From Crystallibacter permensis (GTDB taxonomy: Bacteria > Actinomycetota > Actinomycetes > Actinomycetales > Micrococcaceae): a stretch of 64,000 nucleotides of DNA. Position 1 is the first letter of the stretch. Every line of letters starts with the position of its first letter. Below the pieces are notes generated by a model, which worked only from the letters and a program-made list of their open reading frames with translations, searched no databases and had not been told where the DNA came from. Positions 54,927 to 60,189 of this stretch are shown here, piece by piece. The position numbers and the translations under genes are program-made. The stretch covers positions 248,001-312,000 of the forward strand of contig NZ_JAODLR010000001.1 of assembly GCF_025960875.1 (NCBI RefSeq), written 5' to 3'.

Positions 54927-55133
54927 GGCACCTCCAGGTTGGTGTTGCGACCGCGCACTTCCGGTAGGAGCGGCGTGGTCACAACCGCAGAACAGTATTA
55001 GTAGACTAAACAGCTAGAACATGCTGATTAAAGGTCTCTGAAGCAGAATACCTTCTATAGTCGGCAGAGAATGTCCGCTACTGATGACAACCGCCGGTTT
55101 TCGCTGATGCTTCAGGCCGGTGAAGGAGGACCC

Positions 55134-55385
55134 ATGCCAGAGTCTAAGCCCCGCAAAAGAAGCGAACGCAGGCCGCAGACGACGGCGGCGCCCGAGTACA
55201 AGCCGAACCCGGTGTGGTTCAAGCCGGTGATGTTCGGTTTGATGATCATCGGCCTGCTGTGGATCATCGTTTTCTACATCACCGAGGCACAGTGGCCGAT
55301 CGCCGCTGCCGGCTCCTGGAATATCATGATCGGATTCGGCATTGCGATCGCGGGCTTCCTGATGACCACCAAGTGGCGTTCATAG
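55134..55385 (+). CDS. crgA: CrgA cell-division protein
   Basis: An 83-residue divisome protein that in mycobacteria and Streptomyces helps recruit PBPs to FtsZ. A basic N-terminal tail (MPESKPRKRSERRPQ) and NPVWFKPVMFGLMIIGLLWIIVFYI-type first helix are followed by a second helix in WNIMIGFGIAIAGFLMTTKW. The start at 55134 has a strong GAAGGAGG; an earlier in-frame start is less likely. It is divergent from the sortase operon and ends before a strong terminator. Confidence 0.95.
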   Translation: MPESKPRKRSERRPQTTAAPEYKPNPVWFKPVMFGLMIIGLLWIIVFYITEAQWPIAAAGSWNIMIGFGIAIAGFLMTTKWRS

Positions 55386-55459: not shown

Positions 55460-56641
55460 TTACGCTTTGCCCGCCTCGGCGACAGCGCTCACCGCAGCGG
55501 TGACGGCGGGTGCTACCCGTGGATCCAGCGGGCTGGGGACGATGTAGTCGGCGCTGAGATCGCTGGCAGCAATGTCGGCGATGGCCTGGGCGGCGGCTAC
55601 CTTCATCTCCGAGGTGATCTTCTTCGCACCGGAATCCAGAGCCCCGCGGAAGATGCCGGGGAAGGCCAGAACGTTATTGATCTGGTTCGGGAAATCACTG
55701 CGCCCGGTGGCCACTACCTTGGCGTACCGGCGGGCGATCTCGGGATGCACCTCCGGGTCCGGGTTCGACAATGCGAAGACAATAGCGTCCTCGGACATCC
55801 CGGCGAGCTGCTCTTCCGGAATCGTTCCGGCCGAAACTCCCACGAACACGTCGGCACCGTTAAGAGCTTCAGCGCTGCCGCCGGTGGTTCCGCGCGGATT
55901 AGTGCGCTCGGCGTAGGTGGCCTTGATCCCGGACAGGTCCTGGCGGCCCGAATGGATGATGCCCTTGGAATCCAGGATCGTCACGTCGGAGATACCGGCG
56001 GTCATGAGGATCTCGGACACGGCGATGCCTGCCGCGCCGGCCCCTGAAACGACAACCTTCAGGGACGAGAGCTCGCGCTGTACGAACTTGGCGGCGTTGG
56101 TGAGGGCCGCCAGAACAACGACGGCGGTGCCGTGCTGGTCATCGTGCATCACCGGCATGTCCAGGGCTTCGATGAGGCGCTCTTCGATCTCGAAGCACCG
56201 GGGCGCGGAAATGTCCTCGAGGTTGACGGCGCCGAAGCTCGAACGCAGCCGCACAACGGTTTCAACGATCTCGTCAACATCGGTGGATTCTATGACCAGC
56301 GGAATGGAATCCAGGCCGGCGAATTTCTGGAACAGTGCTGCCTTCCCTTCCATCACCGGCAGGGACGCGCTGGCCCCGATGTTGCCGAGTCCCAGGACGG
56401 CCGTACCGTCGCTGACCACCGCGACGAGACGGGAAGCCCAGGTGTACTTTTGGGCCAGTTCCGGCTCGGCGTGGATGGCACGGCTGACCTGTGCCACACC
56501 CGGGGTGTAGGCGATGGAGAGATCGCGCTTGTCATTGAGCGGCGCGGTCAGTCCGACCGTGAGCTTGCCACCCTCATGGGCAGCGAAAATCTCTTCGGTT
56601 GTCAGCTCGATCGGCGTCGAGTTCACGGTTTCAGCAGTCAC
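55460..56641 (-). CDS. NAD(P)-dependent malic enzyme
   Basis: A 393-residue malic enzyme that decarboxylates malate to pyruvate. The short bacterial form, without a phosphotransacetylase domain. Landmarks are LSIAYTPGVAQVSRAI (catalytic Tyr), VVSDGTAVLGLGNIGASASLPVMEGKAALF (first nucleotide or malate segment), the metal-site region MPVMHDDQHGTAVVVLAAL, and VVSGAGAAGIAVSEIL (Rossmann motif). The start is a GTG at 56641 with AAAGGA nine bases upstream. Cofactor preference is not decidable. It is followed upstream by a 2-kb region without intact genes. Confidence 0.93.
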   Translation of the reverse strand: MTAETVNSTPIELTTEEIFAAHEGGKLTVGLTAPLNDKRDLSIAYTPGVAQVSRAIHAEPELAQKYTWASRLVAVVSDGTAVLGLGNIGASASLPVMEGKAALFQKFAGLDSIPLVIESTDVDEIVETVVRLRSSFGAVNLEDISAPRCFEIEERLIEALDMPVMHDDQHGTAVVVLAALTNAAKFVQRELSSLKVVVSGAGAAGIAVSEILMTAGISDVTILDSKGIIHSGRQDLSGIKATYAERTNPRGTTGGSAEALNGADVFVGVSAGTIPEEQLAGMSEDAIVFALSNPDPEVHPEIARRYAKVVATGRSDFPNQINNVLAFPGIFRGALDSGAKKITSEMKVAAAQAIADIAASDLSADYIVPSPLDPRVAPAVTAAVSAVAEAGKA

Positions 56642-57003
56642 TTGTATGTCCTTTTCTGAGCATCCGGCGATCCGGAAGAACGCATGGTGGTCGGGCATCA
56701 CAGCACATGCATACAGGAGGCGGATCCTCTACCGGCGGGCCGTCGGGCTGTGCGCGGCGACGCCGGTGGCGGTATTACACGGCAAATCTTGCTCAACGTC
56801 GCCTGGCCTGTCGGCGACCGTCTCGGTTTCGGCTGGTCGAGCCGACACTCGTTTCAATACGTTACCGGACAGCGCACCACGGCAGCGGGGATGTTTCCCA
56901 AAAATTTCCCTATATTTCGCAATTTGCGGCAAGCCAGCTAGCGTGCCGCGACACCTCGTCTCGTGGCCGGGCCAGGGGCAACCTCCACTTCTGCGCATCC
57001 ACG
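56642..57003. other. Intergenic stretch upstream of malic enzyme, no gene seen
   Basis: No open frame here has a recognisable family or a convincing ribosome site. It must contain the malic-enzyme promoter (minus strand). A locally A/T-rich patch with AAAAATTTCCC and TATATTTCGC lies at about 56895-56925. Confidence 0.5.
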
Positions 57004-57004
57004 C

Positions 57005-57800
57005 GCTCACTGCTGACTAAGGAATTCGGTGGCCAAGCGCAAAGTATTCCGGTTCGTCCAGGGCGGCCATCCGGCTGGCATCAGGAATGGATTCCAGTCT
57101 TCCTCCGGTTGCTGTAGCGACAGCCTGCATTTCTTTGTAGCCCACCAGATCATCGTCCTGGCCCTAAATCCAACCGTGGGAACGTCCGGCTGGCCCAGGC
57201 GGGGCACAAAATACAGGCGCATCGTCAATGGTCCGTAGGCGCTGATCTGCCACTCGTCGAGGATCGTCTCCTGTGGCTCACTAGCGATAGCCCCCCCAGC
57301 TCGCCAGAGGGAGGATAGAGCCAAGGCCAGAGGTGAGTGTACCTGCCGTGAGGGAAGCAGCAAGCGACCTTCGAACGGCCGCAGATGAACGACCAGCCAC
57401 ATCGCAAACCTGGCGGCCGTCTGGTGTCAATGCCGCCCGGGGCTACCAGAACCAAGCGGATTACAATGCCTGGATTATTCTGGTGTAGCCGATCGAGAGC
57501 CCCGCTCTTATGGAAGTCCCCAATATGGCGATCCCTGGCAGCCCCAGGTAGCTGAGCAACTCGGAAATAACTTGTGCACACAACTCCTTGGTAATCAGAT
57601 GCTGCCATGGACGGCTAGCACCGTGCTTCGGCAGATCAATCGCATAAGCCTGGTGTCCCGGGACAACTCGGCACTGTCCAGCATCGCGCAGCGCAGCAGC
57701 AATACCGGCGGCGGATCGAGCTGGTCGGCATCGTAGAGCTGCACCGGGCCCCCGCGAGCGTGAGCGCCGTCGAATCGGTAAAAGCGCTGTCTGCCATTGG
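57005..57800 (-). pseudogene. Frameshifted alpha/beta-hydrolase pseudogene
   Basis: Pieces of one alpha/beta hydrolase appear in order but in different minus-strand frames. They are PPPVLLLRCAMLDSAEL near 57690, AYAIDLPKHGASRPW followed by LLSYLGLPGIAILGTSIRAG (about 57500-57650), IRLVLVAPGGIDTRRPP near 57440, then a segment with AYGPLTMRLYFVPRLGQ near 57210, and DDLVGYKEMQAVATATGGRL with LESIPDASRMAALDEPEYFA near 57040-57155. At least four frame changes are needed to join them, and the nucleophile motif is damaged (GTSIRAG where G-x-S-x-G is expected). A decayed gene, no longer functional. It directly adjoins the DnaA-box region. Confidence 0.82.
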
Positions 57801-57869
57801 ATGAGCCTTGTTGTCAGGAGCGCGCTTGTTTTAGATCGCCGTCGGCAAAGTACCAAAAAATGTAGTTTG

Positions 57870-58540
57870 CACAAGTTGTGCACGGAGTTATCCACAGGCG
57901 TGTATAACTTTGGGGGAAACTTTGTCATGCCCGTGGATTGTTGCCGCCGTTGAGCCGCTTCAGAGGTAGACATTTGTGTTAGTCACAGGAGTGTAAGTTA
58001 TCCACGCTGTGCATAACTCCTGTGGATAACCGCCGAAAAGATGTGAAAACAGGGATCGCGTCGCCGGCGTGAGTCGCTGAATACCCTTCTCCTGGGTACA
58101 ACTTCTTCGCTTGCCCGTTCTGCCTCCGCATTCGGCCGTGCCCATGGGGAGCGAAGCGGTCTAAGCGTTGAGACCAGAATCAGCGGGGTTGCAGGGGCGG
58201 AACTGCGACATTCCCGCTGACACCTAGCAACTACGCAGTTCGAAGGCACTTGGCAGGACTCCTCGGAGTTAAGGACCACGGCAGGTGGCCGCTGATGGAT
58301 AGTTATCCACAGCCCCCAGTTTTCAGTGGGGATACATCTTCGATCGTATGTTCTACTGTTCATTTCACGCTGCCTTGAACTTATCCACAGGGGTTATACA
58401 CAACGGGGATAAGTTACACACATGTAATTCCACAGCTGTGGATACTGCCCTGACAGTGATCACAGAATTTAACCTCGGCTACGACAAAGAGTTATGCACT
58501 CCTGTGGAAAACTCTGTGCACAACTGTGAACAACTTGCGG
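57870..58540. other. Dense DnaA-box cluster (candidate origin or DnaA-titration region)
   Basis: Four perfect TTATCCACA boxes occur at 57888-57896 (+), 58021-58029 (-), 58303-58311 (+) and 58381-58389 (+). Five single-mismatch boxes lie at 57998-58006 (+), 58008-58016 (-), 58394-58402 (+), 58438-58446 (-) and 58503-58511 (-). Further two-mismatch boxes lie at 57899-57907, 58414-58422, 58492-58500 and 58515-58523. GTTATCCAC and GTGGATAAC form a perfect inverted pair at 57997-58030. No gene is supported here. By chance about half a perfect box would be expected in the whole 64-kb window. Origin or DnaA-binding function is inferred from this density. Confidence 0.75.
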
Positions 58541-58694: not shown

Positions 58695-59567
58695 CTATTG
58701 GGGCAACGTCACCATCAATGACCCGATCCAGGTCAGGACCACCAGCAACACCGCAATGCCCGCCAGGCCGGCCCATTGCAACCGCTGCTGCTTGTCCCCG
58801 CGGGGAACAAAAGCAATGGCGGCAGCAGCCAACGCACCGGTGACCATGCCACCAATGTGTGCCTGCCACGAGATGCCCGGGAAGAAGCTGATGACGATAT
58901 TGATGCCGATCAGCACCAGGATGCCGCGGACATCCTGTTTCCGCTGCAACTGGACAATCAACAGGGTGGTAAAAAGCCCGAAAACGCCGCCGGACGCACC
59001 CACGACGCCTTGGTTTATTTCACCGAGCAGGAGCACTGCAACCGACCCGCCCCAGATCGATAGGAGGTAAAGCGCCACGAATTTCAGACGCCCCAACAAC
59101 GGTTCAAGGTGTTGCCCGAAGATCCAGAGCGCATACATGTTAAAAGCGATGTGCAGGAGAAGGCCGGTTGAATGCAGGAAGCCTGCAGTGATCATCCGCC
59201 ACGGTTCGAAGGGCAGCCCCGGAATCTGGGCGGTGTAAAGGGGAGCATAGACAAGATTCGCTTGAATAACGCCGGGCAACACCCACTGCAGAATATAAAT
59301 CGCAACGCAAAGCGCGATGATGGTGAGCGTCACCACCGGCCTGCCGGTGGTCACCGCTCCTCCGTAGGCCGTGCGATAGGCGGGGAGATTGCGCGCCTGT
59401 TCCTTGACGCATTCCACACACTGGATGCCTACGGCGGCCGTCCGCTGGCACTCGGGGCAAGTCGGTCGCCCGCAGCGCTGGCACCGGACGTAGGAAATGC
59501 GGTCCGGATGGCGTGGACAGACAGGAACTTCGGATTGCGGCTGTTCCGCTGGCATCCCGTAGGACAT
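58695..59567 (-). CDS. Rhomboid-family intramembrane serine protease with zinc-ribbon N-terminus
   Basis: A 290-residue rhomboid. The N-terminus has a Cys-rich B-box/zinc-ribbon-like segment (Cys17, 29, 32, 37, 40, 50, 53; RCQRCGRPTCPECQRTA). Six or so membrane helices follow. The catalytic dyad is Ser192 in VGASGGVFGL and His237 in WQAHIGGMVTG; GFLHSTGLLLHIAFNMYAL supplies the helix-2 His/Asn. It cleaves membrane proteins within the bilayer. The start at 59567 is the best N-terminus; AGGAG lies ten bases before. It follows ppiA on the same strand, but a terminator intervenes. Confidence 0.9.
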   Translation of the reverse strand: MSYGMPAEQPQSEVPVCPRHPDRISYVRCQRCGRPTCPECQRTAAVGIQCVECVKEQARNLPAYRTAYGGAVTTGRPVVTLTIIALCVAIYILQWVLPGVIQANLVYAPLYTAQIPGLPFEPWRMITAGFLHSTGLLLHIAFNMYALWIFGQHLEPLLGRLKFVALYLLSIWGGSVAVLLLGEINQGVVGASGGVFGLFTTLLIVQLQRKQDVRGILVLIGINIVISFFPGISWQAHIGGMVTGALAAAAIAFVPRGDKQQRLQWAGLAGIAVLLVVLTWIGSLMVTLPQ

Positions 59568-59600
59568 GAGGGGGCGTCTCCTGGAGGAAAGCTGGTTAAG

Positions 59601-59636
59601 AAAAATGTCCCCGCCCGGACTCGGCCGGACGGGGAT
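59601..59636 (-). terminator. Rho-independent terminator of ppiA
   Basis: Minus strand ATCCCCGTCCGG pairs with CCGGGCGGGGAC and is followed by ATTTTTCTT. Immediately 3' of the cyclophilin gene. Confidence 0.87.
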
Positions 59637-59646
59637 GGTTGGGGTC

Positions 59647-60189
59647 TTAGAGCTGCTCGACTGTGATGTTGTTGATAACAACGTCTTCCAGCGGCTTATC
59701 CCGCATGTCCGTAGCCACATTGTTCAGCTTGTCCACAATCGCGCGCGAGGACTCGTCGGTCACGTCACCGAAGATGGTGTGCTTTCCCTGCAGCCAAGTA
59801 GTCGGGGTCGTCGTGATGAAGAACTGCGAACCGTTCGTTCCGCGGCCACCCTGGAGACCGGCATTGGCCATCGCGAGCTTGTAGGGCTCGGTGAAGTCCA
59901 GATCGGGGTTGATCTCGTCGTCGAACTGGTAGCCCGGGCCGCCTACGCCCTGTCCGAGCGGATCTCCGCCCTGCAGCATGAAGTCCTTGATGATGCGGTG
60001 GAAGATGACGCCATCGTAAAGGGGGGCATTGGTTTCTTCGCCGGTCGCCGGGTGCTTCCAGGTGATTTCGCCCGTCGCGAGGCCGACGAAGTTTTTGACC
60101 GTCTTCGGGGCATGGTTGCCGAAGAGGTTAAGCACGATGTCGCCATGGTTGGTGTGAATGGTTGCTTTAGCTGTAGGAATAGCAGTCAT
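59647..60189 (-). CDS. ppiA: Peptidyl-prolyl cis-trans isomerase, cyclophilin type
   Basis: A 180-residue cytosolic cyclophilin that accelerates proline isomerisation. The active-site stretch is IFHRIIKDFMLQGGDP (Arg of FHR, Gln of QGGDP). MANAGLQGGRGTNGSQFFIT and HTIFGDV (with W in TTWLQGKHTIFG) complete the drug-binding pocket. No signal peptide. It has the usual actinobacterial position near gyrA, beside the rhomboid gene. Divergent from the repeat-protein gene at 60343. Confidence 0.95.
   Translation of the reverse strand: MTAIPTAKATIHTNHGDIVLNLFGNHAPKTVKNFVGLATGEITWKHPATGEETNAPLYDGVIFHRIIKDFMLQGGDPLGQGVGGPGYQFDDEINPDLDFTEPYKLAMANAGLQGGRGTNGSQFFITTTPTTWLQGKHTIFGDVTDESSRAIVDKLNNVATDMRDKPLEDVVINNITVEQL

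Follow-up and report, generated by a model that had tools for sequence, protein, structure and literature searches.

A conserved non-coding cluster of ordered DnaA boxes with a second, palindromic site 3' of crgA: a candidate replication-control element near oriC in actinobacteria

The window analyzed here, a stretch of 64,000 nucleotides (C1:248001–312000), carries at 57870–58540 a dense cluster of DnaA boxes that belongs to neither strand in particular, contains no recognizable gene and lies 3' of a rhomboid gene. Its boxes stand in a recurrent order, are conserved in relatives, share a palindrome and are situated near oriC. Going by these sequence features, the cluster is probably a non-coding element near oriC that binds DnaA and exerts control in the manner of datA, DBCs or DARS. 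The initial annotation had offered three readings: the real origin of this lineage, a second origin-like locus, or a DnaA reservoir comparable to datA. The last of these fits best, with the refinements that the site is conserved far beyond the genus, that its boxes are ordered in triads, and that it includes a second, palindromic site. The datA and DARS elements are described from E. coli, and the control of once-per-cycle initiation is much less clear in actinobacteria. A conserved element whose boxes have a defined geometry and which includes a putative second protein site would offer a direct handle on this control, as it can be deleted, moved, or used as bait.

An exact scan of the window recovered four perfect boxes (TTATCCACA), at 57888 (+), 58021 (−), 58303 (+) and 58381 (+), together with five single-mismatch boxes, at 57998 (+), 58008 (−), 58394 (+), 58437 (−) and 58503 (−). 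These span 57888–58511 and agree in number and in their presence on both strands with the initial annotation. Allowing TTGTCCACA as a further consensus raises the count to 11 boxes in 700 bp, and allowing up to two mismatches gives 20 boxes in 57870–58540 versus 2.5 expected at the mean density of the window. Sites with at most one mismatch number 21 in the 64-kb window as against 4.2 (sd 1.9) in shuffles, and nine of the 21 fall within the 624 bp of the cluster. Four of the 45 perfect boxes of the whole 4.95-Mb genome sit here, with never more than two close together elsewhere, and no other place in the surrounding 390 kb of contig C1 that was read is as dense in DnaA boxes. The stretch had also been described as gene-free, and this held: none of the five overlapping ORFs of at least 80 aa matched a Pfam family at E ≤ 0.01, and the cluster had no match in Rfam.

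The internal order of the cluster is defined by a triad, i.e., a forward box followed by two reverse boxes at fixed spacing (0/+10–11/+23 in the window). Four of the six triads found in the 390 kb are in the window, where they form two nested inverted repeats. The outer repeat (57874–58525; arms 57874–57909 and 58490–58525, 89% complementary) is formed by an outer-left triad on the minus strand at 57876–57907, listed at C1:305907 (box I, weak, 57899–57907; box II, a perfect TTATCCACA, 57888–57896; box III, weak, 57876–57884), and an outer-right triad on the plus strand at 58492–58523 (I, weak, 58492–58500; II, 58503–58511; III, 58515–58523). The inner repeat (57985–58425; arms 57985–58029 and 58381–58425, 84% complementary) comprises an inner-left triad on the plus strand at 57998–58029 (I, 57998–58006; II, 58008–58016; III, perfect, 58021–58029) and an inner-right triad on the minus strand at 58381–58412 (I, weak, 58404–58412; II, 58394–58402; III, perfect, 58381–58389). 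The exact scan adds a single perfect box at 58303–58311 (+) and a one-mismatch box at 58437–58445 (−). Two of the four triads carry a palindromic core: copy 1 at 57983–57996 (+; TCACAGGAGTGTAA, 9/10) and copy 2 at 58414–58427 (−; 10/10), the latter being one of the three perfect copies in the genome. In both inner triads, box I begins one base past the core of 14 bases, so that it overlaps the extended arm of the palindrome, and hence DnaA and any protein recognizing the core should compete or cooperate. Further triads of the same geometry were seen at C1:323445 (minus strand), upstream of dnaA, and at C1:431700; in relatives, four oriC loci have one (L083, L084, L085 and L094).

The conserved neighbors of the cluster are crgA on the left, coding for a cell-division protein (55071–55385, +; PF06781, 107 bits), and the rhomboid gene on the right (58695–59720 on the minus strand as the ORF is listed, with the start probably near 59570), whose product finds its nearest named locus in Arthrobacter sp. 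SF27 (97% identical). A malic-enzyme gene (55460–56701, −) lies between the two only in the genus of the window, as judged across 60 relatives. From the malic-enzyme gene to the cluster, 1.2 kb (56702–57870) holds no recognized gene; a minus-strand ORF at 57461–57973, without a Pfam match, resembles a degraded alpha/beta hydrolase on visual inspection. In the congener G150 (L064:5605–7212), inspection by eye suggests that a PLP-dependent desulfhydrase-type gene and an Lrp-type regulator have been inserted between units of the cluster.

The initial annotation had set conservation of the boxes in relatives as a check, and they proved to be conserved. We collected crgA loci from 60 relatives and 80 named loci from a single scan with the rhomboid protein, which, leaving aside loci without a crgA or rhomboid match and one spacer of 12.7 kb, gave 65 definable crgA–rhomboid spacers including that of the window, with four genomes represented twice. 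The boxes exceed dinucleotide shuffles (p < 0.05) in 58 of the 65 spacers (54 of 61 distinct ones), the excess being non-significant in the other seven. Of the 20 genomes fetched later, 13 had significant boxes and 8 a significant palindrome; 15 had at least one of the two and 5 had neither (p < 0.05). All nine congeners have 8–15 boxes per spacer, and other families mostly 2–8. Among named examples, Arthrobacter sp. SF27 has 12, A. hankyongi and A. mobilis 11 each, Arthrobacter sp. CAU 1506 8, Auritidibacter ignavus 5, Herbiconiux 4, 4 and 3, and Cellulomonas carbonis 3, with 3 in each of two spacers from Actinomadura and two from Cryobacterium, and 2 each in a Nocardioides and a Frankiales MAG. 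A single box is seen in Leucobacter and in a Naasia MAG (both non-significant), and none in a Nocardioidaceae MAG. Three Streptomyces genomes (L072–L074), one of which shares 90% identity with Streptomyces cyaneochromogenes across a rhomboid gene, have 4–5 boxes each, 3 of them perfect. As a negative control, 60 named loci whose rhomboid gene comes without a crgA match, mostly from Streptomyces, were read for as much as 400 bp 3' of that gene and contained no box.

This conservation is also apparent at the level of single positions. When the window is aligned with its near congeners G149, G151 and G152, 77 of the 81 box positions and 26 of the 28 core positions are invariant versus 274 of the 562 remaining ones; among circular shifts of the box set, just one in 670 reaches 77 invariant positions. 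The 13 loci with crgA and no rhomboid spacer were read separately from the spacer count: seven had only 0–1 boxes in the 1 kb 3' of crgA, and these include four of the ten members of the window's own family outside its genus (L026, L027, L031 and L032), which lack the site. These box-poor loci point to the element being dispensable in some lineages. Of three loci read from outside the class, L081 has four boxes and L080 one, and crgA was not found in L082. Overall, crgA was found in 66 of the 149 genomes sampled from the phylum. Its median distance to dnaA is 20 kb, falling between 13 and 57 kb in 38 of 39 genomes where the two genes are within reach on a single contig; the exception, at 111 kb, is G029, whose crgA has no rhomboid neighbor. 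Four of 43 genomes were left out of this count, as their crgA and dnaA are on different contigs or opposite contig ends.

Of 62 spacers (one genome counted twice), 34 contain the triad, whose definition was derived from these same spacers. The remainder of these loci (0.89 Mb, with duplicates) held one further triad, and 740 kb of named rhomboid loci lacking crgA held none. Inspection of the short spacers in relatives revealed the second motif, TNACA-N4-TGTNA, extended to AATTACA-N4-TGTAATT in sites that were picked by their match. A core of at least 8/10 is present in 49 of the 61 distinct spacers, with p < 0.05 in 47. As the palindrome was first spotted by eye in spacers later used for this count, the 20 later genomes, with p < 0.05 in 8, serve as the fresh test. 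A scan of the spacing between half sites gave 52 matches at 6 and 2 at 5, with 7 (32) and 10 (30) also raised, without explanation. Measured from the core in 74 sites, boxes are found forward at +14/15 and in reverse at +25 (30) and at +37/38 (13 and 34); since the sites were oriented to place a box at +14/15, only the latter two peaks are free of choice. In the family f21, probably mycobacteria, all five genomes have the core or a core variant together with a perfect reverse box exactly at +38, the fifth genome (L076) being counted by its box and core positions. The three Streptomyces spacers have boxes without the triad and only a variant core. Near oriC itself, a core site of at least 9/10 occurs in one of 20 oriC loci.

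The number of cores by itself says little about a partner protein: the genome of the window has the perfect core in three places versus four for the reversed control, making it neither rarer nor commoner, and 57 of 61 genomes of the family have 1–5 (range 0–5; reversed control 0–4). As core numbers match the control, it is the recurrence of particular places that counts as evidence, and the partner, if one protein, has few perfect sites. Besides the cluster, the perfect core is found upstream of a WhiB gene beside a TIGR03089 gene, and upstream of a gene whose product resembles branched-chain amino-acid ABC substrate-binding proteins below the NCBIfam cut-off. By eye and from translations, 12 of 20 core sites from relatives are beside a TIGR03089-like or WhiB-like ORF, often between TTGAC and a −10-like sequence, and one (L224) is surrounded by DnaA boxes. 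Among the cores at L184:1501–1514 and at position 2001 of L206–L225, inspection by eye showed a recurrence between whiB2-like and TIGR03089 genes, and in L185, L215 and L216 the core is upstream of an ABC substrate-binding gene. These recurring places suggest a very small conserved regulon. Tentatively, and with rather less confidence than in the control element itself, one may envisage an ancient actinobacterial module 3' of crgA, in which the palindrome of a dimeric regulator is followed at a fixed distance by a DARS-like triad, with the last box at +38 kept from Arthrobacter to mycobacteria-like genomes; the same regulator would act at whiB2, coupling DnaA activity to the division program. 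A palindrome common to the cluster and to whiB2-like genes offers a testable link from replication to division.

Two known regulators with half sites of a type common to the core (GTnAC, or TNAC...GTNA) were tried as partner. MtrA was favored at first for its half sites and because whiB-type genes are among its published targets (PMC5487470 and PMC5650626). The MtrA protein is present in the genome of the window. Its S. coelicolor consensus is a direct repeat, [GT]T[GA]ACC-N5-GT[GT]AC, according to PMC5650626. This consensus reached p < 0.05 in only one of the 46 spacers of 40–1300 bp used for the test (p ≥ 0.05 in 45), so that MtrA is not supported and stays a mere candidate. The Streptomyces spacers match at 10 of 11 positions in two cases and at 9 in the third. 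The BldD box, TNAC-N5-GTNA (PMC4151990), has 5 bases between its halves; we rejected BldD for the window's lineage, as the core has a spacing of 6 (52 matches versus 2 for 5) and the BldD_C domain is absent from six of nine genomes, including that of the window.

That the cluster could be a replication origin, either the real one of this lineage or a second, is a thought prompted by its boxes, which are more numerous and denser than those at dnaA–dnaN (nine versus four, counted alike), and by a GC content (0.52) much like that of the latter locus (0.51). The cumulative skew minimum at C1:312946 falls between the two and alone cannot decide between them. The dnaA–dnaN locus lies ~15 kb right of the cluster and has boxes of its own: dnaA is on the minus strand from about C1:321930 (Pfam match 322473–322958), about 10 kb past the right edge of the window, beyond which the initial annotation had placed it. 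The four boxes in its dnaA–dnaN gap are matched by 1 to 13 in each of 20 relatives, i.e., boxes in 21 of 21 loci. The lowest GC content over 50 bp is 0.30 there versus 0.38 in the cluster, and dnaN, gyrB and gyrA are to the left of dnaA, all reading leftwards, away from it. Third-position GC skew of the genes from the cluster to dnaA (minus strand −0.097; plus strand −0.228 from only 598 positions) is of the left-arm type, though weakly so (minus- and plus-strand genes have −0.132 and −0.145 on the left arm, as against −0.164 and −0.105 on the right). Further, significant spacers in relatives are as short as 78 bp. The origin reading was accordingly dropped after the checks of skew, gene orientation and the dnaA–dnaN gap; we regard it as very improbable, the real-origin version being unsupported and the second-origin version having no positive evidence. 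The site also serves as a caution that origin-finding by box density alone would choose the wrong locus in this genus.

Among the remaining alternatives, the most serious, and the chief competitor inside the control-element reading, is a DARS-type function, in which head-to-head encounters of DnaA-ADP on the triads would release the ADP and reactivate the protein, such that the locus promotes initiation. We take DARS1 to be at bioD–uvrB, where the same geometry is seen. For DARS2, box positions were assigned visually from the primers quoted in PMC4585315. According to PMC8682772, DARS has three uniquely arranged boxes, of which I and II are opposing, head-to-head DnaA contact that frees ADP, and accessory-protein sites. 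All four triads of the window have this order, with box I opposing II and III oriented like II, and an accessory-protein site, putative in the window, is likewise common to both. The E. coli core spacing is not seen here: both cores have 0/+14/+26 in MG1655, and the difference at I–II (10–11 versus 14) amounts to about a third of a helical turn. Moreover, the E. coli DARS loci are far from oriC, the four triads of the window are arranged as inverted repeats, and some lineages have boxes without the triad; a DARS-type role thus seems rather unlikely, if still to be reckoned with. A transcriptional site, through which DnaA and the partner would control crgA, the rhomboid or the malic-enzyme gene, is considerably less probable. 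The presence of the core ahead of whiB2-like genes, where on visual inspection promoter-like hexamers flank it, hints that the partner may be a transcription factor, and the malic-enzyme ORF starts 1.2 kb from the cluster. Against this, crgA and the rhomboid gene both read towards the spacer in 64 of 65 cases, making a promoter role unlikely, and the malic-enzyme gene is confined there to the window's genus. Least credible of all is a terminator or RNA structure with the inverted repeats acting as hairpins: the folding z-score of −6.8 for 57880–58540 (20 shuffles), and of −1.8 to −11.2 in 14 spacers (8 shuffles each), traces back to the two long inverted repeats (arms 351 and 580 nt apart), that is, to oppositely oriented boxes, and Rfam offers no match.

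Returning to the control element, DnaA would bind the ordered triads, and a dimeric partner would bind the palindromic core abutting box I of the inner triads. Their complex would alter the amount of initiation-competent DnaA free for oriC, either by holding it or by changing its nucleotide state, with the outcome that initiation is timed and not repeated. We infer the binding of both proteins, the effect on initiation and its sign. By analogy, holding or inactivation of the datA or DBC type appears somewhat ahead of DARS-type reactivation, given that the locus is near oriC and that S. coelicolor and B. subtilis provide precedents. The order of boxes in the triad, for its part, favors DARS. 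Being copied soon after initiation, the locus would double in dose early in the round, which suits a brake.

In E. coli, datA controls DnaA through non-coding boxes and a site for a second protein, a combination that the cluster appears to share; at the datA boxes, IHF assists the hydrolysis of ATP bound to DnaA. Its boxes, which we presume to lie at glyY–queG of MG1655, are spread and not in triad order, unlike those of the window. DnaA-box clusters of the oriC region are already known in S. coelicolor, reportedly from Smulczyk-Krawczyszyn et al. (2006, J Bacteriol 188:6184) and under the names H69, H24 and D78. Both these and the B. subtilis clusters repress untimely initiation, according to PMC5742627, which presents the B. 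subtilis DBCs (Okumura et al. 2012) as oriC-proximal box clusters restraining initiation. The cluster of the window resembles this type in being significant, non-coding, and outside but near oriC. The likeness to the DBCs, which are oriC-proximal as here and belong to a different phylum, is one of location and, putatively, of role. The S. coelicolor clusters likewise consist of boxes outside oriC, and one of them may correspond to the Streptomyces crgA–rhomboid spacer with its three perfect boxes; a point of difference is the absence of the triad from the three Streptomyces spacers. In the literature covered, which mostly excludes subscription papers, we found none on a crgA–rhomboid DnaA cluster or on its wide conservation, triad or palindrome, and none pairing "DnaA boxes" with crgA, or "DnaA box" with rhomboid and Actinobacteria.

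A second DnaA-box cluster was observed at C1:453416–453649 (L020:3416–3649), where it precedes the replicative helicase gene dnaB (L020:3844–6678). Among 13 relatives searched, all 12 usable ones have 6–11 boxes in the 900 bp upstream of dnaB; L233 was excluded because its match begins inside the gene. The dnaB gene itself carries an intein (Intein_splicing, residues 555–882), and its residues 229–376, which are missing from the matches in 10 of the 13 relatives, are perhaps a second one.
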